Positions 6,069 to 33,822 of a DNA stretch of 35,075 nucleotides are shown here, piece after piece. Under the pieces are notes generated by a model, which saw only the letters and a list, made by a program, of their open reading frames with translations, made no database searches and was not told the DNA's origin. The DNA lies in the IMG/VR virus record IMGVR_UViG_3300044825_001288, positions 1 to 35,075 of that record, one strand, 5' to 3'. A program made the translations under genes and the position numbers. Within the stretch, counting starts at the first letter, position 1. Every line of letters begins with the position of its first letter. Source of the stretch: a virus.

Positions 6069-6254
6069 ATGAAGATTCAGCTCTTGGTCGCCATGGCGAG
6101 TGACACGCTCGCCTGGCGGCCGGGCGACCTGATAGAGGTCGACGCGGCGGAAGGCAAGCGACTTGTCGACGCCGAGTATGCCATCGCAGTATCGGCCGAA
6201 GCCGAGATCGAATCCGGCGAGGCCAAGACGAAGAGGAGCAAGGAGCGGAGGTAA
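6069..6254 (+). CDS. Small head-associated protein of unknown function
   Basis: A 61-aa protein just after the capsid gene with a good ribosome site (GAGGAGGG). The N-terminal 40 residues (MKIQLLVAMASDTLAWRPGD, then a KRLVDAEYAIAV segment) have the pattern of small phage beta-barrel domains often encoded between capsid and connector genes (pGD.....Ak.Lv..g.A). The tail is charged and lysine-rich. It may be a minor head or connector accessory protein. No enzyme motif is seen. Confidence 0.65.
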   Translation: MKIQLLVAMASDTLAWRPGDLIEVDAAEGKRLVDAEYAIAVSAEAEIESGEAKTKRSKERR

Positions 6255-6257
6255 TTC

Positions 6258-6953
6258 GTGGCAATCTCCGTTCTCACGCCACCCGCAGCGGAGCCAGTCA
6301 CCTTGGCAACGGCCAAGACCTGGCTTCGCGTCGATCACACCGCCGACGACGCGCTCATCTCCGGCCTGATCTCGGCCGCGCGCGATCATGTCGAGCGGTT
6401 CACCCGGCGCTCTCTGGTGCGCACCACATGGCGCATGACGCTGGATACCTTTCCCGGCGGACCGCTGGAACAGCCGCGCTTTTTCAACGCGCCGTATGAG
6501 AACCTGCGGCGCACATGGCGGTATAATTTCGACACTTATGTCGGCGCTCCTTTGGAGCTGCCTCGCGGTCCTGTCACCGCCGTGACGACCGCTGACGGCT
6601 ACGCCTACGACATGCCGAGGGTGCGCTACTACAACTCCACCGGCGTGCTGACGACGCTGGTAAAAGACACCGACTACATCCACGATTTGGCCAGCAACCC
6701 GCCGCGCCTGCAATTGCCGCCAATGACTTACTGGCCGCTGACTCAGCCAGGGCGCAGCAATGCCGTGGAAGTCGATTTTGTGGTCGGCTACGGCGCCAGC
6801 GCCTCGGACTGTCCGCCGCTGCTCCAGACGGCCATCCAGATGCTCGTAGCGCATTGGTACGAGCACCGCGAGGCGGTTGGCCAGTTTGGCGGCGAAGTGC
6901 CTTTGGCTGTCGACAGTATTCTGCGCATCTACCAGATGGGTGATTACCAGTGA
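6258..6953 (+). CDS. Head-tail connector protein (gp6/phiE125 gp8-like)
   Basis: A 231-aa connector that likely binds beneath the portal. The start AEPVTLATAKTWLRVDHTADDALISGLISAARDHVERFTRRSLV is the conserved helical pattern of gp6-like/phiE125 gp8-type head-tail connector proteins (L..aK..Lrvd...dD..i..li.aA...ve..t...l), and the C-terminus QTAIQMLVAHWYEHREAVG is also typical. A GTG start follows AGGAGCGGAGGT. The middle part (about residues 75-150) is beta-rich and longer than in minimal gp6 proteins. It overlaps the next GTG by 4 nt. Confidence 0.88.
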   Translation: MAISVLTPPAAEPVTLATAKTWLRVDHTADDALISGLISAARDHVERFTRRSLVRTTWRMTLDTFPGGPLEQPRFFNAPYENLRRTWRYNFDTYVGAPLELPRGPVTAVTTADGYAYDMPRVRYYNSTGVLTTLVKDTDYIHDLASNPPRLQLPPMTYWPLTQPGRSNAVEVDFVVGYGASASDCPPLLQTAIQMLVAHWYEHREAVGQFGGEVPLAVDSILRIYQMGDYQ

Positions 6954-9096: not shown

Positions 9097-9395
9097 TGTT
9101 CGCCTTGGCCGGCCATCTTGGCATGACGGTGGCCGAGCTTGGAGAGCGGATGACGGCGAGCGAGCTGTCGGAGTGGATCGCGCTCATGACAGTCGAGCCA
9201 TGGGGACAGGCTCGCGGGGACATTCAGGCGGCGACGGCGGCGTGGGCTGCGACCGCTCCCTGGGCGAAGGATGTCAGTCTGGCGGACTTCTTGCCACGGT
9301 ACGGGGAGGAGTCGAGGCAGCAGGAGCTGACGCCGGAGCAGGCCAGGGCGATCCTGCTGGCGAGCGGAGCGGTGGAGGTGAAGCGTCGTGGCTAG
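8722..9395 (+). CDS. Tail assembly chaperone, -1 frameshift fusion (gpGT-like)
   Basis: Predicted 224-aa product: residues 1-116 in the zero frame, then a -1 shift at A_AAA_AAC (9063-9069), entering a frame that continues LRERPTRRLMFALAGHLGMT and reaches the stop at 9393-9395. The second frame has the typical GpT-like pattern LAGHLGMTVAELGERMTASELSEWIALMTVEPWGQARGDIQAATAAW, common in second-frame halves of tail chaperones. Alternatively that half could start alone at ATG 9096, which overlaps the stop of the first frame (TGATG). The slippery site and conserved genetic layout make frameshifting the better explanation. It overlaps the tape measure start by 8 nt. Confidence 0.85.
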
Positions 9396-11922
9396 CATCA
9401 TCCGCACTTCGCTCTCGATGGGATGGGATGGCGACGAGGCCATCGCCGGACTCAACAAGCTGGCCGATGCCACGCAAAAAACTGGCCAAGAAATCGACGA
9501 TCTTGCGATCAAGCAGAAGCGCGCAGCCGCCGAACAAAAGGCGTTTGAGAAACGCTTGGAAGGCATGAACGCCTTGGAGCGCCAGGCTGCGATCTTGGCG
9601 CGCGAAACCAAGCAGCGCCGCATGGGTATGACGGCAGGCCAGATCGAAAACGAGATCAAGCAAGAGCAAATCAAGAAGCAAAAAGAGGCGTCTTACGAGT
9701 CGCTGAAAGAACGGCTTCGCGGAATGAATGCGCTGGAGCGCGAGGAATATAAAGCCGCCGAGCGCAAGAAAAAGCTTGTCATGTCGATGACTGCCGATCA
9801 GATTCGGCAGGAGCAGGAAAACGCCAAGAAGCTGGCCGAGCAAGCCAAAAAACGAGATCAAAAAGAATCCGCTTTTGCTGCGCTCAAGGATCGCCTGCGC
9901 GGCATGAACGCCTTGGAGCGGCAAGAATTTAAGAATCAGGAAAGAGAGAAGAAACGGCTGAGCACCATGTCGGCCGCCGAAATCACCAAGGAGATTGAAG
10001 ACAAGCGAATCGCCAAGGAGAAATCATCGTCGTTTGAGGCGTTGAAGAACAAACTGCGCGGCATGAATGCCTTGGAGCGCGAGGAGTTCAAGGAAGAAGA
10101 ACGCAAAAAATCACGGCGGATGAAAATGTCGGCCGAGCAAATTCGCGCCGAAATCGATGCCGAGAAGAAGGGCGAAGAGGCCAAGGCGGCGCAAGCCAAG
10201 AAGGCGGCTGACAAGGCAGCGGCGTGGCAAGAATGGCGCAACAAGTCCCTATTCCAGAAAGCAGCGCACCTAACATCTGGCGCCGCTGACATTCGTGCCG
10301 CCGGCGGCATGGTGTATGGCGCAGCCAGCGGCGTCGCCAACGGCGCGGTGCAGTTCGCTCAGATGGGTGCCGAGCTGGAGTCGATGCAGATCCGCGCGGC
10401 CTACCTGGCCGGGAGCTTCGCCAAAGGCACCAAGGCGATCGAGGACATGCGCCAGGCATCCATGGCGTCGGGGATCGCGCTCAAGGAAAATGTCGCCGCC
10501 ATGACGCAGATGGCCAACGCCGGCATCTCGATGGAGGCATCGACACGCACCGTGCAGCAGGCCTCGGCGGCGGCGGAGCTCCTTGGCGAAAACGGCATGG
10601 CCAGCATCTCTGGCAGCATCTCGGCGCTGTTCAAGGCTGGCACGGCAAGTTCAGGCGAGCTGGATGCGCTGCAATCGCAAGGCATCCATGTCTACGAAGA
10701 GCTGGCCAAGGTGCTGGAGAATACGACAGGCAAGACGCACTCGCTCGAAGAGGCGATGGGAGCGGTGCGGGAAGGCGCCGTTTCCAGCGGCGAGGCGGTG
10801 CGTGCCGTCATGGCGGCCAGCAACAATCAAGAAATGCAGGACGCCGCCGCTCGCTTTGCCGGCTCGTTTGAGGGACAAGTCAGGCGCTTAAAAACGACAA
10901 TGGAGGACACCTTCCGCGAGATCTCCAAGCTGTTCCTCGACAGTTTCGACATCACCTCGATTGCCGCCGGCCTGCGCGGTGCCTTCATGGCGATCAGAGA
11001 CATCGTCAAGGAAATCGCCAACACCTTCTTGCCGGTGATCGATCCGAAAGACAAGGCAAAGGGAGTCGAAAACACTTTCCGCGCCATGCGTGACATCGTT
11101 TACGACTTGGCCGAAAGAATGGCGAACGCTGTCATTGATTTGCGGCAAGCCTTTGAGACGCTGCTGCCAATCATCGAGGCCAACATCAACAAGTTCATGA
11201 AGCGGATGGAATTTGGCTTGTCAGGAATATTTGCCGGCGACGAGATCAACAGGTTTTATGAGTCCGAGGATGCGGTCGCGCGGATGAAGGGACGAGGTGC
11301 CGCAACTCGTGCCGATGCCGCCAAAGCGGGAGTTGGAAAATTCTTTGGCGATGTCCGCGCAGGCGCCGCTGCCAGGGACGCCGCCAACATTGCCAAGCCT
11401 GCCGAGCGCATTGCCGAGGCCAATCGCAAATTGGAAAACCGAGCCGGCGACGCGGCGCTTGCGCTGGAGACGATGGCCAAGAGCGCCAGCAAGTTCGCCG
11501 TTGACACCATGGCGCAAATGCGCACGCCGTTTGAGCAATTTAATTTTGAAGTCAAGAATCTGGCCAAGAGCTGGGACGAGGCCGATCAGGCCGCAAAAAA
11601 CAAGTTGATGACAGGCGACGAACTGAGCAAGTTCCGTGACGCGGCCACGCGCAAAGGCGGCCGACTGCTCCAAGACTTGATCGCCAACAACATCGGCGGT
11701 GAGTCGCAGTTCTCCTCGGGTGCCATTCGTGGCAGCGCCGCCGAAGTCGAGATGCGGGTGCGCGCGCAGTACGGCGAGGAGACGATGTCGATTCAGGAGA
11801 AGATCCGCATCGCCACCGAGCGCGCCGCCTTCAACAGCGACAAGCAGTTGGCATACTCAGCGGCGCTGGTCGACGCATTCGGCAAACAGAAGAACCCACC
11901 AACAGCACAGATGAGCAAGTAA
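9388..11922 (+). CDS. Tail tape measure protein
   Basis: An 844-aa protein that sets tail length and is ejected with DNA. A GTG start follows GGAGGTGA. Residues about 45-265 are a charged coiled-coil region with four copies of a repeat carrying GMNALER (residues 59, 112, 172, 225) followed by an M(T/S)A-x-(Q/E)I segment; spacing is 53, 60 and 53. Residues about 290-560 hold the usual tape measure domain: AAGGMVYGAASGVANGAVQFAQMGAELESMQ, a stretch ending LGENGMASISGSISALFKAG, and FEGQVRRLKTTMEDTFREI. The C-terminal third is helical. The length would correspond to a tail near 125 nm at 1.5 angstrom per residue, a rule of thumb only. Confidence 0.95.
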   Translation: MASIIRTSLSMGWDGDEAIAGLNKLADATQKTGQEIDDLAIKQKRAAAEQKAFEKRLEGMNALERQAAILARETKQRRMGMTAGQIENEIKQEQIKKQKEASYESLKERLRGMNALEREEYKAAERKKKLVMSMTADQIRQEQENAKKLAEQAKKRDQKESAFAALKDRLRGMNALERQEFKNQEREKKRLSTMSAAEITKEIEDKRIAKEKSSSFEALKNKLRGMNALEREEFKEEERKKSRRMKMSAEQIRAEIDAEKKGEEAKAAQAKKAADKAAAWQEWRNKSLFQKAAHLTSGAADIRAAGGMVYGAASGVANGAVQFAQMGAELESMQIRAAYLAGSFAKGTKAIEDMRQASMASGIALKENVAAMTQMANAGISMEASTRTVQQASAAAELLGENGMASISGSISALFKAGTASSGELDALQSQGIHVYEELAKVLENTTGKTHSLEEAMGAVREGAVSSGEAVRAVMAASNNQEMQDAAARFAGSFEGQVRRLKTTMEDTFREISKLFLDSFDITSIAAGLRGAFMAIRDIVKEIANTFLPVIDPKDKAKGVENTFRAMRDIVYDLAERMANAVIDLRQAFETLLPIIEANINKFMKRMEFGLSGIFAGDEINRFYESEDAVARMKGRGAATRADAAKAGVGKFFGDVRAGAAARDAANIAKPAERIAEANRKLENRAGDAALALETMAKSASKFAVDTMAQMRTPFEQFNFEVKNLAKSWDEADQAAKNKLMTGDELSKFRDAATRKGGRLLQDLIANNIGGESQFSSGAIRGSAAEVEMRVRAQYGEETMSIQEKIRIATERAAFNSDKQLAYSAALVDAFGKQKNPPTAQMSK

Positions 11923-12860
11923 TGGGGTACACCTTATTCAAAGAAGTTGAGGCAGGCCGGCGCGCAAGCGTCGATCAGCGCTACCAGCGCACCTACTCCC
12001 GCGTGTTTGTCATCCGCACCGACGCATCGTCTTATGGTCCCTACTATGCCGGCTCGCATCCATCCCTGCCGGCGATCTGGTCGGCACATCCCGAGGATGC
12101 CTATGCTCGCTGCACCTCGCTGGATGTGCAGCAGGAAAGCGGTGATCCTTACCAGTGGCGAGTGACGGCCAATTATGCCTACTACGCCGATCAGGGATCA
12201 GCCGCCAGCACCGGCGATCCTGCCGTCGACAACCAGCAGAAAGGACAGGATCCTGCCGACCGCGTGCAGTCGCCGTTGTCGAGGCCGAGGGATTACCAGA
12301 TCTCGACGACGAGCTACAAAGTCGCAACGGCCACAGCATGCAACACATCCACCAACGCCTACACCGTGCCGGTGGTGAACTCGGCTGGCGATCCGTTCCT
12401 GCCGCCGTTGGAAACGGAGCGCGGCGCCGCCACGATCACCGTCGGCCTAAATAGCACCAGCGCGCCATCGGCGTCATGGATTCAGGCCATCGGCTATGTG
12501 AACGCCAGCAGTTACACCATCGGGCCGTATGTCATCGGTGCCGGCTTGGCCAAGCTCGACAGCGTCTCGGCGCAGCGTGCCTTTGAAAACAACCTTTCGT
12601 ATTGGCGCTGGTCGCTGGTGTTCTCGTACCGTCCGCTCGGCTGGGCGGTTGTCGTCATGGATGCCGGCAAGCGTGAGAAGTCCGCCATCACTGGCGAAAT
12701 GCGGAACATCACGATGAACGGCGTGCCTGTGTCGTCGCCTGTGCCTTTGAACGGCAGCGGCTACAAGCTGAGCAGGAGCGCGATCGAGGCCGATCCTGTC
12801 GGCGCCTACACCTACCTGACTTTCCATGTGTACCCACGCGTGGCATTCCCGAGTTTGTGA
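11922..12860 (+). CDS. Tail protein of unknown function
   Basis: A 312-aa protein directly after the tape measure, where siphophages place distal tail or baseplate proteins. It is rich in Tyr, Ser and beta-strand patterns. Notable segments are VDQRYQRTYSRVFVIRTDA at the N-terminus, PLETERGAATITVGLN in the middle, and FENNLSYWRWSLVFSYRPLG near the end. There is no signal peptide, transmembrane segment or enzyme motif. The ATG overlaps the previous stop by one base. I infer a tail-tip role from position only. Confidence 0.65.
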   Translation: MGYTLFKEVEAGRRASVDQRYQRTYSRVFVIRTDASSYGPYYAGSHPSLPAIWSAHPEDAYARCTSLDVQQESGDPYQWRVTANYAYYADQGSAASTGDPAVDNQQKGQDPADRVQSPLSRPRDYQISTTSYKVATATACNTSTNAYTVPVVNSAGDPFLPPLETERGAATITVGLNSTSAPSASWIQAIGYVNASSYTIGPYVIGAGLAKLDSVSAQRAFENNLSYWRWSLVFSYRPLGWAVVVMDAGKREKSAITGEMRNITMNGVPVSSPVPLNGSGYKLSRSAIEADPVGAYTYLTFHVYPRVAFPSL

Positions 12861-13594
12861 TGGCAGGCTACCTTGTCAGCGAAGACGATCTGAAGCGGCT
12901 CAGCGCCGTGCTCATGGATTATGAGCGCGGCGTGCTGACTCGGCAGAAGTTCCAAGAGGAGACGGCCGGCCAGCTCCCGGTGATGCATGTCGTCAAGGTA
13001 AGCGGCGCGGCATCAGGCGGCAGCTATCCCGGCTACCTGCAAGAGTACAACGAGACAACCGCCACCTGGACAAACCTCGGCACCATTTTGATCAGGGAAG
13101 TCAACGGCGCCGCGCTCACCACAGATCAGCGGTACATCGGCCGTTATGCCGGCGATGTGGCATCAGGTGCGGTTTACCTCGTGCTGGCTGGTGGTGGTGG
13201 CGGTGGTGCCATCCTGTCGCTGGATTTCGTCACCTCCATCTCCTGCGTCGATGGCGTAATCACGCCGGTTTACTCAACCATATGCATCCCCGGCGGTTAC
13301 ATCTGCACCACAACGACAACCACGACAACAGCGGCGCCGACCAGCTCCACCAGCTCGACCTCGACGAGTTCAACTAGTTCAACATCGACCAGCTCAACCA
13401 GTTCAAGCACGACAAGCACGACCACGACATGCGACGCCAATGGTCCCGCTGGATATACCGTTTTTTGCTGGAATGGCACCAACTGGTATGTAGACCAGTA
13501 CAGTTGCAATTCGGGTTATGGAACGCCTGTGTTCCCGAGTTACCCTGGTGCATATATCGGCGATTGCGTCCTTGTATGTTGTGATCCAGTATGA
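12860..13594 (+). CDS. Virion protein with mucin-like Thr/Ser tract and Cys/Trp module
   Basis: A 244-aa protein. The N-terminal third (VSEDDLKRLSAVLMDYERGVL onward) has no recognised domain. A Gly run (about 110-116) follows, then a mucin-like tract made almost only of Thr and Ser with AAP at one point (encoded by about 13307-13429). It ends with a Cys/Trp-rich module: C...GYTVFCWNGTNWYVDQYSC...C..CC. The latter resembles modules in the next two proteins. Position after tape measure and tail-tip genes suggests an exposed tail protein. ATG 12860 overlaps the previous stop (TGATG); a GTG at 12857 is also in frame. The tract is a plausible target for the glycosyltransferase at 15091 (inference). 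Confidence 0.65.
   Translation: MAGYLVSEDDLKRLSAVLMDYERGVLTRQKFQEETAGQLPVMHVVKVSGAASGGSYPGYLQEYNETTATWTNLGTILIREVNGAALTTDQRYIGRYAGDVASGAVYLVLAGGGGGGAILSLDFVTSISCVDGVITPVYSTICIPGGYICTTTTTTTTAAPTSSTSSTSTSSTSSTSTSSTSSSTTSTTTTCDANGPAGYTVFCWNGTNWYVDQYSCNSGYGTPVFPSYPGAYIGDCVLVCCDPV
13307..13429 (+). repeat. Thr/Ser codon low-complexity tract 1
   Basis: Degenerate ACN/TCN/AGY repeat encoding about 41 residues that are nearly all Thr and Ser. The many different synonymous codons suggest selection on the amino acids, not recent slippage only. Confidence 0.85.
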
Positions 13595-13779
13595 CTCACA
13601 TCCCCACCACCATGCCTCCGATCGACTGCCAGTGGCTATGGGATGGCTTCCAGTGGGTGCCTTACGCGCATGAGTCGGGCTGCGTACCTTGCTGGCCGCC
13701 GCTGCAAGACGGAAAGTTCTTCGGCGACATGGTGACGACGGGAAGGACTACGACGCCGCCGCCAAAAGGGGGTGGCTGA
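13591..13779 (+). CDS. Small Cys/Trp-rich protein
   Basis: A 62-aa protein with the same short module as its neighbours: CQWLWDGFQWVPYAHESGC, then PCWPP and a Gly-containing end, with a Thr/Pro-rich tail (TTGRTTTPPPKGGG). It overlaps the preceding stop (ATGA) and the following start (TGATG), so all three are translationally coupled. There is no signal peptide. The module may be a metal-binding or disulfide-stabilised adhesion unit; function is unknown. Confidence 0.6.
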   Translation: MTHIPTTMPPIDCQWLWDGFQWVPYAHESGCVPCWPPLQDGKFFGDMVTTGRTTTPPPKGGG

Positions 13780-14732
13780 TGCCAACAGAGACGACCACGG
13801 AAGCGCCCCCAATAACGACTACCGAAGCTCCTGTAACAACCAGCTCGACATCCTCAACATCAACATCTACTAGTTCGACATCCAGCACCACGACGACAAC
13901 CACGGCCGCGCCATGCACCGGCGGCTGCACTTGGCGATGGAGCGCGGCCGGCCAGACATGGCTGAAATACGGCACCGGCAACTGCTCGACGGGATGCTCA
14001 TGCCAAGCGCCGACATCGCCGGGAACAGAAGACGGCGAGTATCAGACGGTGTCATGTGGTCGGCTGACATGTCAGGCGTGCTGCGGCGGACAAAACACTG
14101 AATGCTGCCCTATTGTTGTGACATGTGGTGACTGTTCAAGCCAGCCAATTCGCTTCCCAAGCAAATTGTTTGTAACTTTTTTAGATTCAGATGGAGAGTG
14201 TCCATGTTTGAATGGATTAGAATTTGAACTAAATTCCATGCCGGTATCGGCTAGATTACCGCAGCCAACCGATGGCTCAGTGATTCATGGATTCTGGAGA
14301 TTTAGGCCAAGTTATGGAATTTATGGATACTACGACAATAACTGTAAGGATAACGAAGACACTATTTTATGCGATGGAAATACGGCGTTTTATTACCCTG
14401 CATGCCAATATGCTTATAGCAATGGGCCTCAATTGACATTGTCGCAGAACCCTATTGGTGTCTGTAATTTTAATTTCTTCTGGTCTCTTACTTTTGATCA
14501 ATTTGTTTTAAATGATAAAAGAATTATTGCTAATGCTGCATCTGATGGAGCAATTTTTCCTTCTGAGTCGACTACAGTTTTTCCTTGTCAAAGTCCGTTT
14601 TTTTTAGAATTTACTTATTTATATTTTAGTAACACCAACCAGTACGATTCAGATCCATTTGCTTGTTTTGAATCCAATATACCTCCATATCGAACATCTT
14701 TAAGAAAATTCAAGGTGACAATCACCGAATGA
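13779..14732 (+). CDS. Receptor-binding-like protein: mucin-like linker, Cys module, AT-rich C-terminal domain
   Basis: A 317-aa protein. Residues about 4-46 are a Thr/Ser/Glu/Pro mucin-like tract. Residues about 47-125 contain a Cys/Trp module (CTGGCTWRWSAAGQTW, then repeated Cys pairs). Residues about 125-317 form a beta-rich domain full of aromatic residues. The DNA switches from GC-rich to clearly AT-rich near 14110 and back at about 14730, exactly with the C-terminal domain, as expected for a domain swapped in from another source. Such exchange is typical of receptor-binding tail proteins. ATG 13779 overlaps the previous stop. Confidence 0.65.
   Translation: MPTETTTEAPPITTTEAPVTTSSTSSTSTSTSSTSSTTTTTTAAPCTGGCTWRWSAAGQTWLKYGTGNCSTGCSCQAPTSPGTEDGEYQTVSCGRLTCQACCGGQNTECCPIVVTCGDCSSQPIRFPSKLFVTFLDSDGECPCLNGLEFELNSMPVSARLPQPTDGSVIHGFWRFRPSYGIYGYYDNNCKDNEDTILCDGNTAFYYPACQYAYSNGPQLTLSQNPIGVCNFNFFWSLTFDQFVLNDKRIIANAASDGAIFPSESTTVFPCQSPFFLEFTYLYFSNTNQYDSDPFACFESNIPPYRTSLRKFKVTITE
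13786..13910 (+). repeat. Thr/Ser codon low-complexity tract 2
   Basis: A second Thr/Ser-rich tract with interspersed Glu-Ala-Pro, at the N-terminus of the next large protein. It is similar in design to tract 1 and again uses mixed synonymous codons. Confidence 0.85.
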
Positions 14733-15094
14733 AACCCTGCAACCACACGCCACCGAAACACGGCTGCCGCCTCTGCTGGCTGTTTGAGCATGACGCACGC
14801 TACCGGCAACTCTGGGGCGGTGATCCTGCCACGGTGACGGCACCAGTGGCGCAGGCGCCGGCGCCGCCACAGCCAACAGCAGAGCAACTGGCCAAGCTGG
14901 AGCAAATCAAAACGGTGATCAGAAAGCCGTGCGTTCACCTTGGCATGGCGCTGGAGGAAAAGCCATCGTGTGGGTGCGGTGGCAAACCGGCACTGCTGCA
15001 CGAGTGCGGCGTGTACGGGAAATGCCGACCATATGCTCCACGGCAGAACGAAGTGCGCGAGTGCGTCGGGTGCGACAGGTATCAGCCTGAATGA
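14729..15094 (+). CDS. Cys/His-rich putative zinc-binding protein
   Basis: A 121-aa protein with two Cys clusters separated by a Pro/Ala-rich linker: an N-terminal CNHTPPKHGCRLCW (C-x-H...C-x-x-C), and a C-terminal cluster with CVHLG, CGCGG, HECGVYGKC and ECVGC. This suggests two small zinc-binding folds. A similar N-terminal cluster ends the portal protein. It overlaps both neighbours by ATGA and is coupled directly to the glycosyltransferase, so a partner or targeting role for that enzyme is plausible. Function is otherwise unknown. Confidence 0.6.
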   Translation: MKPCNHTPPKHGCRLCWLFEHDARYRQLWGGDPATVTAPVAQAPAPPQPTAEQLAKLEQIKTVIRKPCVHLGMALEEKPSCGCGGKPALLHECGVYGKCRPYAPRQNEVRECVGCDRYQPE

Positions 15095-15957
15095 AGCTAA
15101 CCATAGGCATGGCCAACTACGCCGACGCTCAAGGAGCGTGGTGGACGCTTTCAAGCCTACGCCTGCACCATGTGCCGCTATCGTCGAAAGACATCGAGCT
15201 GCTCGTCGTCGATGACATGCCGCAGGCCAATCAGGAGCTGCAAACATCCTGCGCCCTAGCCAAGGCGCGCTACATCCACGCACCCAAAAACCTCGGACCG
15301 GCGCACGCCAAGAACTCCGTCTTTGAGCACGCTCGTGGCGAGCATGTTTTGCTGCTCGATTCGCATGTGCTTCTCGGCGAGTGCCACATCGACACCCTGC
15401 TCAAGCTCATCGACAGCGTGTGCATCGGCGACGACATGTGGGTCGGTCCACTTGTGAACGAGGCTGGGGAAGTGATCGCCACGGAGCTCGTGCCTGAGCT
15501 GCGCGGCGGCATGCTGGGCGTCTGGCATGTGCGACCGCAGATGCCGCCATGGTGCGAAGTACAAGCGCACGGCACGGCGTATATGTGCATGCGCCGGGAG
15601 TCGTGGCCGGGATTCTCGCAGCACTTCCAAGGATTCGCTGGCGAGGAAGTGTACATCCACGAAAAGGTACGGCGGCAAGGTGGCCGAGTGTTCTGCCACT
15701 CCGGCCTGAGCTGGTGCCACCGCTTCATGCGTTTCGGCGTGGCGCCACAGTACAGGCTCACATTGAACGACAAGTATCGCAATCACCTCGTCGCCGCCTA
15801 CGAGTGTGGGTGGTCGGTCGAGCAGATGCGCAACTATTTCCGGCGCAAGCTGCCGGCGGATCAGGCGGTCGTCGTCGAGTCGGAAGTCGCCGTGGTTTGT
15901 CCAGACATCTGGACGCGGGACTGCACCGGCGCGCGGGAGTTCCGAACCCACGACTAG
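15091..15957 (+). CDS. GT-A family 2/27-like glycosyltransferase
   Basis: A 288-aa GT-A glycosyltransferase. The N-terminus MKLTIGMANYADAQGAWWTL begins the nucleotide-sugar fold. LLVVDD (about 37-42) is the first acidic motif and HVLLLDSHVL (about 85-94) holds a D-x-H metal site. The acceptor half has GFAGEEVYIHEKVRRQGG (181-198), then SWCHRF (207-212). D-x-H in place of D-x-D, and a G-E-E...V...GG...H block, are features known from polypeptide GalNAc-transferases (GT27), so a protein acceptor is plausible. It has no membrane anchor and should be cytoplasmic. It sits in one coupled operon with mucin-like tail proteins. Alternative: it modifies host glycans or DNA bases. Confidence 0.83.
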   Translation: MKLTIGMANYADAQGAWWTLSSLRLHHVPLSSKDIELLVVDDMPQANQELQTSCALAKARYIHAPKNLGPAHAKNSVFEHARGEHVLLLDSHVLLGECHIDTLLKLIDSVCIGDDMWVGPLVNEAGEVIATELVPELRGGMLGVWHVRPQMPPWCEVQAHGTAYMCMRRESWPGFSQHFQGFAGEEVYIHEKVRRQGGRVFCHSGLSWCHRFMRFGVAPQYRLTLNDKYRNHLVAAYECGWSVEQMRNYFRRKLPADQAVVVESEVAVVCPDIWTRDCTGAREFRTHD

Positions 15958-16233: not shown

Positions 16234-16871
16234 TCGTCGCGGCGCTGCTGCTGCTGGCCGGCCAGAAGATCGAGCTGCCGGCCGAGGTGAGGGGAGAGCC
16301 GGGTGCGTTTATTGCGATTACGCCAAAGACTGACGGAAAGCGTGTCAGATACTATTCGCTCGATGCTGGCCTGAATTCATTCCCGGCGGAACTTTTATCG
16401 AATCCCACCGCCACGGTCGTCACGGCACCAGCGCCAGGACGCTACCGTTTGTTGGCCTACACCGCAATCGGCGACATGCCGTCCGATCCTGTCATCATCA
16501 CCGTTGTGGTTGGCGAGGCGGCGCCAAAGCCCAAGGAGCCATCCGCCTACGAGCGATCTTTGCTGGCCATCTGGGGTGCCATCCAAGAGGCCGATCGGGA
16601 CGCTTCCCGCGTCGCCGTGGCGCAGATGTACCGTGCCTGCTCCGTCGAGGCACGCAAGGAACACGGCACCGCCGGCGCTCTTTACGAGGCGCTCTTGAAA
16701 ATCAGCTCAACCGTACCACGCGGCAAGCTGGCCACGCTGCGTGAGCGTGTTGGTGCCGAGATTGCCACGGTGGTGCCAGACGATCCCGGCGCCACCATCA
16801 ACGCCGCGCAACGGCAGCAGGTGTCGGACATCTACGCCATCACGGCGGCGCTGCTGGAGTCCGTGAAGTGA
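16230..16871 (+). CDS. Secreted protein with Ig-like N-terminal domain
   Basis: A 213-aa protein. Residues 1-15 (MIVAALLLLAGQ) form a short hydrophobic signal-like segment. Residues about 16-92 are beta-rich with the pattern PAEVRGEPGAFIAITPKTDG..VRYYSLD.GLN.FP.ELL and GRYRLLAYTAIGD, like an Ig-type domain. A Pro/Lys linker and a helical C-terminal domain follow (about 100-213). ATG 16230 is chosen because it overlaps the previous stop and has GGGAAGGAG upstream. It lies between the holin-like and peptidase genes, so a lysis or envelope role is possible; this is inference. Confidence 0.6.
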   Translation: MIVAALLLLAGQKIELPAEVRGEPGAFIAITPKTDGKRVRYYSLDAGLNSFPAELLSNPTATVVTAPAPGRYRLLAYTAIGDMPSDPVIITVVVGEAAPKPKEPSAYERSLLAIWGAIQEADRDASRVAVAQMYRACSVEARKEHGTAGALYEALLKISSTVPRGKLATLRERVGAEIATVVPDDPGATINAAQRQQVSDIYAITAALLESVK

Positions 16872-17761
16872 GTGACTTGCTCTTCAGCGGATGGGTGCGT
16901 GACGACGACGCGGTCGATGCACTTCTCGGCGAGCTGCCTTACCCTGTCGCCGCTGACACGCCGGCCGGCCGGCACGATCATCCGCTGCCAGATCATGTAC
17001 ACCTTTGGCAATTTGCGCGACAGGTGACAGGCAACCTGTTGCCGGCGGGAACACAAGGCGACATCGGCTCCTGTGTGTCGTTTGGGACGGCGCGCGCGAT
17101 TGAGTACACAATGTTGGCCGAGATCGCCGGCGGCGACAACGAGCAGTTCAAGAAATTGGCCGAGGAGTGCATCTACGGCGGCGCTCGCGTCGAGGTGGCC
17201 GGTGGTCGCCTGCGCGGTGATGGTGCCGTCGGTGCCTGGGCGGCCAAGTGGGTTTCGATCACTGGTGGGTTGATCCCACGCGGCGTGTTCGGCTCGCTCG
17301 ACCTCACCAGCTACAGCGTCGATCGCTGTCGCAAGTACGGCATCGCCGGTGTCCCTGATGAACTGGAACCCGAGGCGCGCAAGCATCAAGTCTTGGCGAC
17401 TCAGGTATTGAGCTGGACCGAGGCCAAGCGCATGCTGGCCAGCGGCTACGGCATCGCCGTGTGTAGCAGCCAAGGCTTCTCCATGAAGCGCGACGCCAAC
17501 GGCATCGCCAAGCCTTCCGGTTCATGGGCGCACTGCATGTGCCTCTGCGGCTACTCGACGATCGGTGGCGAGGAGTACGGCCGCATCGATAACTCATGGG
17601 GTGCCGACTCGCACACCGGTCCGACTGGTCCCGGCGATCCCGGACCGGAAGGCTTTTATGCATCGAGCGCTGTCATCGACAAAATGTTGCGGCAGAACGA
17701 CAGTTGGGCGTTCTCTGCCGTCGCTGGTTTCCCTGTCCGCCGCATTAACTGGACTATATGA
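16868..17761 (+). CDS. Papain-like cysteine peptidase (C1-type)
   Basis: A 297-aa papain-fold peptidase. Gln63 and Cys69 lie in TQGDIGSCVSFGTARAIEY (oxyanion Gln and nucleophile), His222 in GSWAHCMCLCGY, and Asn242 in GRIDNSWG, which is the near-invariant NSWG of C1 peptidases. All triad residues are therefore present. There is no signal peptide; release would need the holin-like protein or virion packaging. The GTG start overlaps the previous stop. It sits in the slot usually held by an endolysin, and no muramidase, amidase or transglycosylase motif is seen in the window. It may degrade envelope protein, or be a virion-borne enzyme. Confidence 0.85.
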   Translation: MSDLLFSGWVRDDDAVDALLGELPYPVAADTPAGRHDHPLPDHVHLWQFARQVTGNLLPAGTQGDIGSCVSFGTARAIEYTMLAEIAGGDNEQFKKLAEECIYGGARVEVAGGRLRGDGAVGAWAAKWVSITGGLIPRGVFGSLDLTSYSVDRCRKYGIAGVPDELEPEARKHQVLATQVLSWTEAKRMLASGYGIAVCSSQGFSMKRDANGIAKPSGSWAHCMCLCGYSTIGGEEYGRIDNSWGADSHTGPTGPGDPGPEGFYASSAVIDKMLRQNDSWAFSAVAGFPVRRINWTI

Positions 17762-18604: not shown

Positions 18605-18634
18605 AAAAAATCAGGAATCACGCATTGCGTGATT
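18605..18634 (-). terminator. Rho-independent terminator of integrase gene
   Basis: A perfect 9-bp stem, AATCACGCA / TGCGTGATT (18616-18634, one-base centre), overlaps the integrase stop. On the - strand it is followed by CCTGATTTTTT. Confidence 0.75.
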
Positions 18635-19763
18635 ACCCCCATTTTTCGACGACGGATTCAACCATCCACCTTGGCGCTGCGGCATATCTGCCTGTAATGG
18701 TATGACTGCCAGTTGAAATGGCTTCATCGTCGCTTTTGCCGTGGTGGCCAAGGATTGCGCCGATAATAGCTTCGGGAACCAGCTTGCTAACCAGAAATGT
18801 GGCGCTGGTATGCCGGACCTGTCTCGGGGTGTAGTGGGGGATTCCGGCGTGTTTGCAGGCAGTCGTCATGGCCGCCGCGTATCCGCTGTACTGCCGTGGT
18901 CCTCGATAGGCGACGCCTGAAAGAGCACTTCTGCCAGGAAACAAAAACCCTTGAGATTTGTCTTGGAGAATTGGCTCCAATACCTTTCTTGCTCGTGGTC
19001 CAACCATGATCGTCAGCGGCAGTCCTTTGGCCAAGTTCTTATGCTGGCTTGGCGTGTAAACCCATGGAGTGCGTTGGCGATTGAGTTCCTGAACTGATAC
19101 GGCCAGTGCCGTCTCGACGCGCTGTCCTGTCAGCAAATGCCATAGAAAAAGCGGGCGCCAGCTTTGCTTCAGGTTTCGCAGTATCTGAAAAATGTGTTTG
19201 CGTGGAATGCCGCGCAAAACTTTGCGAGCAACGCCTTGATCGCCTCGTAATGTCGGCAACCGCTCTAGGCGCAAGGCCTGATCGACATCAACCCATTCTC
19301 GGTCCGATCCCCATCGAAAACAGCGGCATATGCGTGACACATAATGCTTGATGGTTTGCTTGGACAAGCTCCGGTCGATTAGTTGCTGGCGGATGTCAAG
19401 CAGGTGAGCGCGCGTGAATTCTTCGATTGGCTTGTCGGCCATCGGCTGAAGGAGCTCAGCCGCTCGGATACAGGCAAAGATTTCGCCGGTAGGCTTGCCG
19501 TCAGCGCGCTTGTAAGTCTGTCCGCAATACTCCAGCCATCTGGCAACTAATTCGCCAATTGACTTGGGTGCCGACAGGCTGGCAATCGATACAGGTTTGG
19601 TTCGGCGGATAAAATCAGAAACCCAAGCGGCATACTTGCGATTGGCTTCCACGGTCCCCCATGGACCCATGTACACCTGACGGCCTGTCTCTGGATCGAC
19701 CACAAAGGCGTAGTCGCGTTTTTTGTGTCTGCAAAGCTGTGGGATTTTTTGTGTTCGAGCCAT
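18633..19763 (-). CDS. int: Tyrosine recombinase (phage integrase)
   Basis: A 376-aa tyrosine recombinase that would insert and, with the excision factor, remove the phage at a tRNA-Pro gene. N-terminal arm-binding-like region: HKKRDYAFVVDPETGRQVYM. SAM-like core-binding domain at about 66-165. Catalytic domain: Arg215 (LLTGQRVETAL), Lys242 (QHKNLAKG), Arg317 (PRQVRHTSATF), His340 (ILGHHG), Tyr360 (ITGRYAA). The usual first His of the H-x-x-R box is Arg314 here. ATG 19763 is chosen; codons upstream read through the tRNA fragment and are not part of the protein. Start and attachment site are adjacent, as usual. The signature VGPRA..VL.PIL resembles planctomycete integrases. Confidence 0.93.
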   Translation of the reverse strand: MARTQKIPQLCRHKKRDYAFVVDPETGRQVYMGPWGTVEANRKYAAWVSDFIRRTKPVSIASLSAPKSIGELVARWLEYCGQTYKRADGKPTGEIFACIRAAELLQPMADKPIEEFTRAHLLDIRQQLIDRSLSKQTIKHYVSRICRCFRWGSDREWVDVDQALRLERLPTLRGDQGVARKVLRGIPRKHIFQILRNLKQSWRPLFLWHLLTGQRVETALAVSVQELNRQRTPWVYTPSQHKNLAKGLPLTIMVGPRARKVLEPILQDKSQGFLFPGRSALSGVAYRGPRQYSGYAAAMTTACKHAGIPHYTPRQVRHTSATFLVSKLVPEAIIGAILGHHGKSDDEAISTGSHTITGRYAAAPRWMVESVVEKWG

Positions 19764-19774
19764 TTTTTTTGTGT
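19719..19774 (-). repeat. Three TTTTTTGTGT repeats, candidate integrase arm sites
   Basis: TTTTTTGTGT occurs at 19719-19728, 19745-19754 and 19765-19774, in the same direction, 26 and 20 bp apart. Two copies lie in the integrase N-terminal codons, one just upstream. They lie 57-112 bp from the tRNA-derived core, a distance fitting lambda-type arm sites (inference). Confidence 0.45.
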
Positions 19775-19830
19775 CGTTTTGAGTCTTAGTTTGCCTCCAA
19801 GTTTCGCGTTTTTCCCGGTGTTTTTTGAAG

Positions 19831-19877
19831 TCGGGGCGACTGGATTTGAACCAGCGACCTCTTGCACCCCAAGCAAG
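19831..19877 (-). other. attP: attP core: 3' part of a tRNA-Pro(GGG) gene
   Basis: On the - strand the 47 bases read as the 3' part of a tRNA: a perfect anticodon stem CTTGC/GCAAG with loop TTGGGGT (anticodon GGG), variable region, T-arm GCTGG-TTCAAAT-CCAGT, acceptor half CGCCCCG and discriminator A. The D-arm and 5' acceptor half are missing, so it is not a working tRNA. Integration there would restore the 3' end of a host tRNA-Pro gene. It lies 68 bp upstream of the integrase start. Confidence 0.8.
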
Positions 19878-19979
19878 ACCGAAATGACGCAAAAACCTTT
19901 ACCAGCAAAGACTTCCGGCAAATCCGAATACTTGGCAAGTAGACGAAATCTCCGCAGAAACTCAACACTGGCTTAGGCA

Positions 19980-31611: not shown

Positions 31612-33822
31612 ATGCCAAATTATTATGTCGCCTCGGCAACGGATGGCACAAGCAGTCTAGATGTTTATTCATGGTCTTCGTCTGGATTTGGCACAAGGAT
31701 GTCAAACCCATCGACAGGAAGTCGAACATCTGCAACAGGTGTAGCGTTCACACCATCTGCCAATGCAATCGCTATCAGCAGGAGTGCCACAACAAATCCA
31801 GTTCAAGCATGGCCTTTTTCCAGTTCTGGTTTTGGGACTGTTTACTCAAACCCTTCAAGTGCTCAGGCATCCAACGCAATCAAATTCAATCCGGCAGGCA
31901 ATGCTGTTGCAACCGTTACGGGTTTTGCGTCGCCTTACATTGACGCCTGGTCTTGGTCATCTGGATTCGGATCGAAATATTCAAACCCTTCAACTACTCC
32001 CGGAAGTACTACCCATGATGTTTCTTGGTCTGCAAATGGATCGCATATCGGCTGCGTGATGTTGTCTACGCCGTATGTTCGTGCGTGGCCATGGTCATCT
32101 GGTTTTGGAACAGTTTATTCCAATCCTTCATCGGCATTGCCAAATTCGGCCTATGGAATTGCATGGTCGCCAAACAACGATGTTGTCTTAGTTGGTCACC
32201 TCAGATCTCCTTATATTTCGGCTTATGCGTTTTCCAGTTCTGGATTTGGTTCCAAATACTCAAATCCAACCACTTTACCAGGCTTTGGGACTAGTGGCAC
32301 ATGCTATGGATGTTGTTTTCGAGGTGCCGGTGATTATGTCGCTGTTGGATCGGTGCAGTCTCCATATATTCACGCCTATTCGTGGAGTTCTGGGTTTGGA
32401 ACAAAAAGTTCCAACCCATCAACCTTGCCAACAGCTATTGGATTTGATGTCGATTTTGCTCCAACTGGCAATCAAATCGTTGGCGTTTTTGCAAGTGCGA
32501 CATCGCCTGCTCCATTAGTAGGGTATAGCTGGTCCAGTGGGTTTGGGGCGCAATATTCGGCACCAACGACTAAGCCAACAAGTTCATCATTTGTCGGTAC
32601 TGTTGCATTCGGGACAGCTCCGACCGCGACAACAATTACGGCATCGGCTGCTACATTTTCTCTTTCAGGTATCGCAGCAAATTTAACTAAGACTGCTGGC
32701 GGCACGGCATACACGATCGTTGCCTCTCAGGGCACCTTCGCCCTGACGGGGATCGATGCCAATCTCAAGATTGGTCGAACGATATCGGCATCTCAGGGAT
32801 CGTTTACTTTTTCTGGGATTGCCGCAGGCCTGAAAGTCGGCCGATCGCTGACGGCATCGCAGGCGTCTTTCACGCTGGTTGGCAAGGATGCGGGTCTGCC
32901 ACGCGGTCTAGCGCTGACCGCATCATCTGGATCGTTTGCCTGTTTCGGTGTTGACGCAGATCTCAAATCTGGTTCGACAATCACGGCATCGACTGGCAGC
33001 TTTGGCCTGACTGGCATCGATACCAACCTCAATATTAGCCGAAATATCACGGCATCGGGTGCCACCTTTGTTCTGACTGGCATCGATGCTAACCTCAAGT
33101 TTGGCCGAACTATCACGGCAGACTCCGGCGCATTTAACGTTTCGTTTGGCGCAACGGCATTTCATATCAGCCGGCGTATTTCATGTGATGCCGAAGCGTT
33201 TGCTTTCTCTGGAGTATCCGTCGGCATTTATCGCGGAAGGACAGTATCTGCTGAATCTTCTGCGTTCCTGTTTTCGGGAAGCACTGCCGGCCTGCTGATC
33301 GGCCGGCGGATGGATGCATCTGCTGGCAGCGTGGCCATTACTGGCGCTGGCGCTGGATTTGTCACCGGTTACGGCATGCGGGTGTCGGCGGGTACGTTTG
33401 CCGTTGACGCCGTCTCGGCCACGCTGTCCAAGGCGATCACGATTTATGCTATCGCTGGAATTTTTACAGCATCGGGATCGAGCGCAGGCCTTTTCCGGTC
33501 GTCGTTGATTGTTGCCGGTCGCGGTCAGTTCTCCTGCGCCGGCATTCCTGCTGGTGTGGCGTCATCCAGGCGGATCAGCGGAACCGTTTCCAACTATGTG
33601 ATCACCGGGAACACCGCTAACTGGGTGGTGCATTACTACCTGCCGTCGACCGTGACGGTAAGCGATGTCGGCGTGAATACCCTTAGCCTGGCTGAGTCGG
33701 TTGTTGGTGCCGCTACGGTGTCGGAGCAATTGGTTGGTACAGCCAGTGCCAGTGAGTCGCTGCCAGCCAGCTTGCAAATCACGGCTGCGAGCGTGGCAAG
33801 CGCTACGATCGTGGATGAGTGA
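31612..33822 (+). CDS. Tail-fibre-like protein: seven-bladed propeller plus 22-residue repeats
   Basis: A 736-aa protein with a perfect AGGAGGTGA ribosome site. Residues about 1-340 contain seven units with an A(Y/W)xWSSGFG(T/S)xYSNPS core, fitting a seven-bladed beta-propeller. Residues about 340-675 contain about fifteen 22-residue repeats of the type ITAS-GSF-LTGIDANLK-GR, likely a beta-solenoid or stacked sandwich; repeats 2-7 are most regular, later ones diverge. A Ser/Val-rich tail follows. It probably forms a tail fibre or capsid/tail appendage that binds the host surface. DNA of the first half is more AT-rich than that of the second. Confidence 0.75.
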   Translation: MPNYYVASATDGTSSLDVYSWSSSGFGTRMSNPSTGSRTSATGVAFTPSANAIAISRSATTNPVQAWPFSSSGFGTVYSNPSSAQASNAIKFNPAGNAVATVTGFASPYIDAWSWSSGFGSKYSNPSTTPGSTTHDVSWSANGSHIGCVMLSTPYVRAWPWSSGFGTVYSNPSSALPNSAYGIAWSPNNDVVLVGHLRSPYISAYAFSSSGFGSKYSNPTTLPGFGTSGTCYGCCFRGAGDYVAVGSVQSPYIHAYSWSSGFGTKSSNPSTLPTAIGFDVDFAPTGNQIVGVFASATSPAPLVGYSWSSGFGAQYSAPTTKPTSSSFVGTVAFGTAPTATTITASAATFSLSGIAANLTKTAGGTAYTIVASQGTFALTGIDANLKIGRTISASQGSFTFSGIAAGLKVGRSLTASQASFTLVGKDAGLPRGLALTASSGSFACFGVDADLKSGSTITASTGSFGLTGIDTNLNISRNITASGATFVLTGIDANLKFGRTITADSGAFNVSFGATAFHISRRISCDAEAFAFSGVSVGIYRGRTVSAESSAFLFSGSTAGLLIGRRMDASAGSVAITGAGAGFVTGYGMRVSAGTFAVDAVSATLSKAITIYAIAGIFTASGSSAGLFRSSLIVAGRGQFSCAGIPAGVASSRRISGTVSNYVITGNTANWVVHYYLPSTVTVSDVGVNTLSLAESVVGAATVSEQLVGTASASESLPASLQITAASVASATIVDE
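32629..33635 (+). repeat. About 15 degenerate 66-bp repeats in the fibre gene
   Basis: Coding repeats of 22 codons, each with (I/L/V)-(T/S)-A-S near its start and F in the strand, often ending GR. Degeneracy at the DNA level is high, so the array is old or under diversifying selection. Confidence 0.75.

Follow-up and report, generated by a model that had tools for sequence, protein, structure and literature searches.

The IMG/VR virus record IMGVR_UViG_3300044825_001288 (35,075 bases, hereafter the window) is a contig of a siphovirus-like temperate phage, in which we have analyzed a cassette encoding two proteins with long Ser/Thr tracts (B and C), a small Cys/Trp module protein, a Cys/His protein (D) and a glycosyltransferase. 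The gene order of the window is terminase, portal, fused head protease and major head protein, connectors, tail gene, tape-measure-like open reading frame (ORF) and cassette, and neighbouring genes of the five-gene cassette share a few bases (Table 1). Judged by gene order, the glycosyltransferase gene lies among or adjoining the virion genes, as is expected of a phage that glycosylates its own virion. An earlier note on this DNA had described a chain of overlapping genes with two Thr/Ser-tract proteins carrying AAP/EAP, a Cys/His-rich protein, and a glycosyltransferase whose D-x-H site and GEE block resemble polypeptide GalNAc-transferases. This description stands: the ORFs run from 11922-12860 through 15091-15957 as described, tract 1 lies exactly at the proposed position and tract 2 at 13782-13913, the 14729 product is indeed rich in Cys and His, and the enzyme motifs are present and invariant over 32 relatives. 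The chain also includes a gene for a protein of 62 amino acids (aa), which goes beyond that description.

Table 1. Positions of the cassette, its motifs and selected flanking genes in the window
Feature	Position	Strand	Basis or remark
Tape-measure-like ORF (long)	9388-11922		Immediately before 11922-12860
Backbone tail-region protein, 312 aa; survey marker	11922..12860	+	ORF, order, conserved family A4
Gene B, 244 aa, proposed substrate	12860..13594	+	N-terminus, Ser/Thr tract, C-terminal Cys/Trp module
Ser/Thr tract 1, TTTTTTTTAAPTSSTSSTSTSSTSSTSTSSTSSSTTSTTTT, 38/41 Ser/Thr	13307..13429	+	
Cys/Trp module protein, 62 aa, ends TTTPPPKGGG	13591..13779	+	Overlaps both neighbours
Gene C, 317-aa tract/module protein, proposed substrate	13779..14732	+	
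Ser/Thr tract 2, PTETTTEAPPITTTEAPVTTSSTSSTSTSTSSTSSTTTTTTAAP, 30/44 Ser/Thr	13782..13913	+	
Gene C Cys/Trp-rich module (CTGGCTWRWSAAGQTW...C)	13914..14072	+	Conserved among relatives (A7)
Gene D, 121-aa Cys/His (zinc-ribbon-like) protein	14729..15094	+	
GT27-like GT-A glycosyltransferase, 288 aa	15091..15957	+	PF00535, AlphaFold2 model, PDB matches
D-S-H motif (D90, H92), predicted metal/uridine diphosphate site	15358..15366	+	Invariant (A2); aligns with GALNT DAH
GEE motif (E185, E186), GALNT WGGEN counterpart	15643..15648	+	Invariant; aligned
H210, counterpart of GALNT third metal-ligand His (GHVFR)	15718..15720	+	Invariant; aligned
Integrase	18633-19892		

Tract proteins, their partner and the enzyme

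Tract 1 is made up of 41 codons (22 Thr and 16 Ser, with AAP) and tract 2 of 44 codons (20 Thr and 10 Ser, with EAP/EAP/AAP). The tracts are written with mixed codons, comprising all four for Thr and all six for Ser of the AGY as well as the TCN kind, and therefore look kept as amino acids, not as DNA repeats; a slipping DNA microsatellite was rejected because the codons are too diverse. Next to each tract lies a Cys/Trp-rich module (C..CxWxW...W...C..CxC..P), likewise absent from the earlier description, that matched no Pfam family. The gene B product has a conserved N-terminus (xGYLL..D...RLAKML..YE), the 62-aa protein has homologues at loci L002 and L003, and the relatives of gene C, with sizes from 398 to more than 1000 aa, alternate several tracts with Cys modules. 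In the AlphaFold2 model of the gene C product, the tract has a mostly low predicted local distance difference test score (pLDDT, ~40) and the Cys module is predicted to be folded (pLDDT ~84-95 across most of it), while the remainder is modeled too poorly for naming the C-terminal domain. Comparison with the two closest sister phages shows conserved flanking proteins and tracts that differ in length and sequence. The architecture is mucin-like in that Ser/Thr/Pro-rich, predicted disordered tracts of variable length and sequence lie between conserved Cys-rich modules, though no sequence relation was found between mucins and the phage tract proteins. The C-terminal domain of gene C is highly variable among relatives, usually ends in ...TE and is possibly a swapped receptor-binding domain; the second half of the gene (14200-14730) has 36-41% GC compared to ~60% around it. 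A third small poly-Thr tract protein (APATTTTTTTTTAAPTTTTTTTGGA) is encoded ~7.1-8.2 kb upstream of the enzyme in L020, L038 and L041.

The invariant core of D reads CxxLG ... CGCG ... C ... C ... CxxCxxY. D is free-standing in the window. In L012 (by gene layout also in L013 and L049) it makes up the C-terminal part of the tract protein, and in L112, L113 and L124 the N-terminal part of an enzyme of another family, PF11051. Its fusion to both partners suggests a linking role for D between the two. Moreover, C, D and the enzyme occur as a unit on the 186- and 108-kb contigs of L017/L018, where the marker gene 11922-12860 is absent within 10 kb.

The enzyme matches PF00535 Glycos_transf_2 in Pfam (E 1.1e-9), which names general GT2 only. 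It carries LLLDSHV (D90-S91-H92) and GEEVYIHEKVRRQGG...SWCHRF, and D90, H92, E185, E186, R194, W208, H210 and F212 are among the residues invariant in the alignment of the 32 relatives, which extends down to ~34-38% identity. GalNAc-transferases hold Mn2+ by D-x-H plus a later His (PMC4202792, PMC9996832, PMC11074326), and D90, H92 and H210 align with the GALNT motifs DAH and GHVFR, these positions being taken from the sequence alignment. When the AlphaFold2 model (pLDDT 93.4, predicted template modeling score 0.92) is compared with PDB, the top 41 Foldseek matches are all polypeptide GalNAc-transferases (GT27), and so are the top 29 of VIA-align (Z 18.8-23.0, 246-269 residues aligned, ~3.3 Å, 12-18% identity), with 6nqt as the best one (Z 23.0, 262 aligned, 3.3 Å). 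The best matches outside GT27 are GlfT2 (Z 18.3), the chondroitin polymerase K4CP (18.2) and B4GALNT1 (17.4). In the structure comparison proposed by the earlier note, GT27 is thus placed above everything else in PDB. The resemblance to GT27 pointed out there stands for the fold and the metal-site pattern, whereas the evidence for membership by sequence is marginal (profile versus GALNT4 E 0.018; hhalign E 0.07, low probability), and the comparison with three GT27 fragments by hhalign and hmmsearch gave weak matches. The enzyme also has no C-terminal ricin-type lectin domain: its whole length aligns to the catalytic domain and no lectin family was matched in Pfam. Because of this missing domain and the marginal sequence similarity, we regard the enzyme as GT27-like and not as a canonical GT27 member. 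The closest viral structure model, A0A6J7WYC1 (56% identity), belongs to an uncultured Caudovirales protein named by its GT-A domain only. At some loci, a second gene that looks like a GT2-like glycosyltransferase follows the GT27-like one (L017, ~0.9-1.6 kb downstream; L220, 2909-3982; L230, 0-917) and perhaps extends the first sugar.

Co-occurrence and exchange of enzyme and tract

Relatives of the enzyme are encoded at 49 viral loci. The annotated phage collection gave a single weak match, and the genome contigs gave none when searched with the enzyme sequence alone and four loci when searched with a profile. Among the relatives with at least 54% identity, Ser/Thr tracts lie 0.4-4.2 kb ahead of the enzyme gene in every case where the upstream DNA reaches far enough. 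In the whole family, a Ser/Thr or Gly-Thr tract encoded on the same strand lies no more than 4.5 kb upstream at 40 of the 51 assessable loci, very diverged planctomycete and desulfobacterial ones included, and tract presence switches at least five times on the tree. The pairing is also found with unrelated backbones (L017, L058, L232, L234-L237), and in the diverged planctomycete loci among these (L232, L234-L237) the tract proteins lie directly upstream of the enzyme. None of 46 random viral loci (380 kb; drawn by an arbitrary 15-mer) has a tract of at least 17/20 Ser/Thr or at least 8/19 Ser-Gly dipeptides. The search pattern for the Cys module was too narrow to judge diverged loci, where zero counts carry little weight. 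A survey of this kind had been proposed along with the cassette, and it shows the enzyme to be nearly always accompanied by Ser/Thr tracts directly upstream; the objection foreseen at that time, an enzyme often found without tract, applies to a limited extent (11 of the 51 loci). In a 132-kb phage with the same enzyme (L047), ORFs of 1540 and 1386 aa with many TTTTTT-PAP tracts lie downstream on the opposite strand.

A natural control is provided by the loci that share the marker gene, taken as neutral (71 viral loci, with the enzyme identified by profile). Wherever the GT27-like enzyme occurs with the marker (28/28), a tract of 20/20 Ser/Thr is present and no Ser-Gly tract is found. At 11 other loci the same slot is occupied by a PF11051 enzyme (E 4e-9 to 1e-12, four tested); here, the Ser/Thr tract is missing throughout (0/11) and Ser-Gly repeats are present in 9/11. 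The Fisher P values for the two enzyme types are 6e-10 (Ser/Thr tract) and 3e-7 (Ser-Gly tract), kinship being ignored. On the marker-gene tree, there are at least two switches of enzyme type and likewise of Ser/Thr tract: GT27-like clades enclose the PF11051/Ser-Gly clade L074-L088-L101-L102 (sister-group support 87/80), and the PF11051 loci L107 and L113-L124 fall outside them. These PF11051 sister phages share the slot, the D domain and a tract protein immediately upstream, but differ in enzyme family, in having Ser-Gly instead of Thr/Ser tracts and, in some cases, in a C-terminal methyltransferase domain. Most of the wider PF11051 relatives also have a Ser-Gly tract within ~2 kb upstream. 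The self-glycosylation of tail proteins put forward in the earlier note is strengthened accordingly, since the link between enzyme and tract holds in relatives with another enzyme and another tract. PF11051 (Mannosyl_trans3) enzymes were located at L101:12456-13988, L107:12325-13857, L112:12400-13866 and L124:12341-13687, those of L101 and L107 carrying the methyltransferase domain.

A proposed self-glycosylation cassette and its alternatives

We consider it likely that these genes form a phage self-glycosylation cassette, in which the 15091 enzyme O-glycosylates the tracts of the phage's own tail-region proteins. It would attach a sugar from a host-made nucleotide-sugar to many Ser/Thr residues of the disordered tracts. 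The acceptors would be the 12860 and 13779 products (B and C), putative tail-tip-region proteins in which Cys-rich modules alternate with tracts. Glycosylation would occur before or during tail assembly, with D most likely bridging enzyme and tract protein. Once glycosylated, the tracts could project from the tail end as stiff, hydrated bristles, which may bind or space the receptor, or shield the virion.

Several observations weigh against this proposal. Besides the marginal sequence similarity to GT27, the placement of the tract proteins in the virion is read from gene order only. Nor do the loci count as independent: few switches underlie the 28/11 split, one of them on the branch with support 87/80. 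Further, L110 and L112 carry a PF11051 enzyme without a clear Ser-Gly tract. The 11 loci without a tract within 4.5 kb upstream comprise seven large AT-rich phages and four cellular relatives, and in two of these seven phages no (ACN)7 runs were found in the whole 41-46 kb record. As counter-examples the AT-rich phages are weakened, as the other five hold poly-Thr codon runs elsewhere (24 to 161 (ACN)7 matches per record versus 0 to 15 in the reversed control). G697 and G698, large phages with a full cassette, have few (ACN)7 hits, their tracts being richer in Ser.

Known activities of phage glycosyltransferases include DNA glucosylation and serotype change (PMC12619734). The target of the enzyme could likewise be phage DNA or the host surface, the latter in an O-antigen-, teichoic- or capsule-like conversion, in which case the tracts would be flexible linkers and the adjacency that of a moron behind tail genes. 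Such a role is compatible with the Pfam and NCBIfam matches to general GT2 families, with PHROG matches that are weak only and include one to GtrB-like O-antigen conversion, and with the four cellular enzyme relatives that lack a nearby tract. Yet, a linker role would not predict tract chemistry to switch along with the enzyme family that occupies the slot, and neither the fusion of D to both partners nor the transfer of C, D and enzyme as a unit is explained. In addition, the best fold matches are protein-acting enzymes and a GtrA-like membrane partner was not recognised in the gene chain. As joint switching and D fusions are left unaccounted for, we deem host-surface or DNA modification unlikely. 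It is also improbable that tracts and enzymes are merely common in the phages of one host group and move with clades without any enzyme-substrate relation: one phage group does hold most GT27-like loci, and distant backbone relatives occur in 3/392 Planctomycetota genomes, but at least two joint switches took place within the backbone tree, the pairing recurs on the unrelated backbones, and the random viral loci are devoid of tracts.

Another explanation keeps the tract proteins as acceptors and assigns them a different sugar or mechanism, with a GT2-type enzyme (for GlcNAc, galactose or other) whose D-x-H site is convergent. It overlaps with the self-glycosylation proposal, because the main claim is kept and only sugar and ancestry change. 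In its favour, the enzyme sequence fits GT2 profiles better than GT27, there is no lectin domain, the structural match has ~14% identity, and among the proteins checked no sugar-nucleotide gene was recognised. Conversely, no other GT-A family reaches the Z and coverage of GT27, with which the GEE block and the later His also align. We therefore hold the convergent GT2-type enzyme as a whole to be possible but rather doubtful, while a different sugar on the same acceptor is quite possible.

The self-glycosylation cassette proposed here resembles several known systems. With GT27 of metazoa and Toxoplasma the phage enzyme shares the GT-A fold over its whole length, D-x-H with a later His and a GEN/GEE block, and GT27 acceptors are Ser/Thr-rich tracts as well; Toxoplasma GalNAc-T3 has a D-S-H site and acts sequentially along Thr stretches (PMC11074326). 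It differs in being a phage gene, in lacking the ricin-type lectin domain and in its ~14% identity. According to the accounts of Freeman et al. (2023) in PMC11256854 and PMC12619734, mycobacteriophages such as Che8 have glycosyltransferases thought to modify their own capsid and tail-tube proteins, providing a glycan shield. The likeness lies in a phage glycosyltransferase for the phage's own virion proteins, which is a prediction in the present case. In those accounts, however, capsid and tail-tube subunits carry their glycans at the C-terminus, whereas the present cassette has dedicated mucin-like tract proteins, an adjacent GT27-like enzyme, a Cys/His partner and a tract type matched to the enzyme type. 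Phage virion glycosylation is thus already known from mycobacteriophages; to our knowledge, the pairing of a GT27-like enzyme with a dedicated mucin-like acceptor is undescribed, and no account of this combination in a phage was found in a literature search outside of which most subscription journals fell.

More tentatively, and a little short of an even call, the interchangeable pairs (GT27-like/Thr-Ser and PF11051/Ser-Gly) with their shared Cys/His adaptor may represent a two-part code for tail dressing and a case of mucin-type O-glycosylation in a prokaryotic virus. The Planctomycetota and Desulfobacterota relatives, some of them fused to a PqqD-like domain or located beside tract proteins, would then be cellular cousins of mucin-type initiation. 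If the self-glycosylation proposal is true, mucin-type chemistry extends to bacterial viruses, and a small lectin-free polypeptide glycosyltransferase becomes available together with its natural acceptors. It would also offer a testable annotation rule for environmental phage contigs, tract type predicting enzyme type, and bear on how the tails of uncultured phages reach their hosts or hide from them.

Cellular relatives, host and neighbouring genes

In a metagenome-assembled genome (MAG) of Desulfobacterales (L059, 7098-9434), a fusion gene joins the enzyme domain to a PqqD-like domain on one side and a GT25 domain on the other, and a gene nearby (6085-6555) codes for a protein containing a long (Ser-Thr)n run. 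In the systems where its role is known, PqqD acts as a chaperone that binds peptides, and by this analogy the fusion may point to a peptide acceptor. L230/L238 have a similar PqqD-like N-terminus. Three near-identical GT27-like genes (L060, L061, L062) occur at separate places in one Schlesneria MAG, with no tracts nearby.

The product of the marker gene gave no match in Pfam or PHROG. Planctomycetota, the only phylum searched with the marker, contain its distant relatives in 3 of the 392 genomes sampled, a weak hint that the phage host possibly belongs to this phylum. Further along the window, a 736-aa ORF (31612-33822) gave no PHROG match. Downstream of the cassette, a papain-like cysteine peptidase (PF00112, E 1.6e-4) is encoded at 16868-17761 and is kept in close relatives, including those with the PF11051 enzyme.

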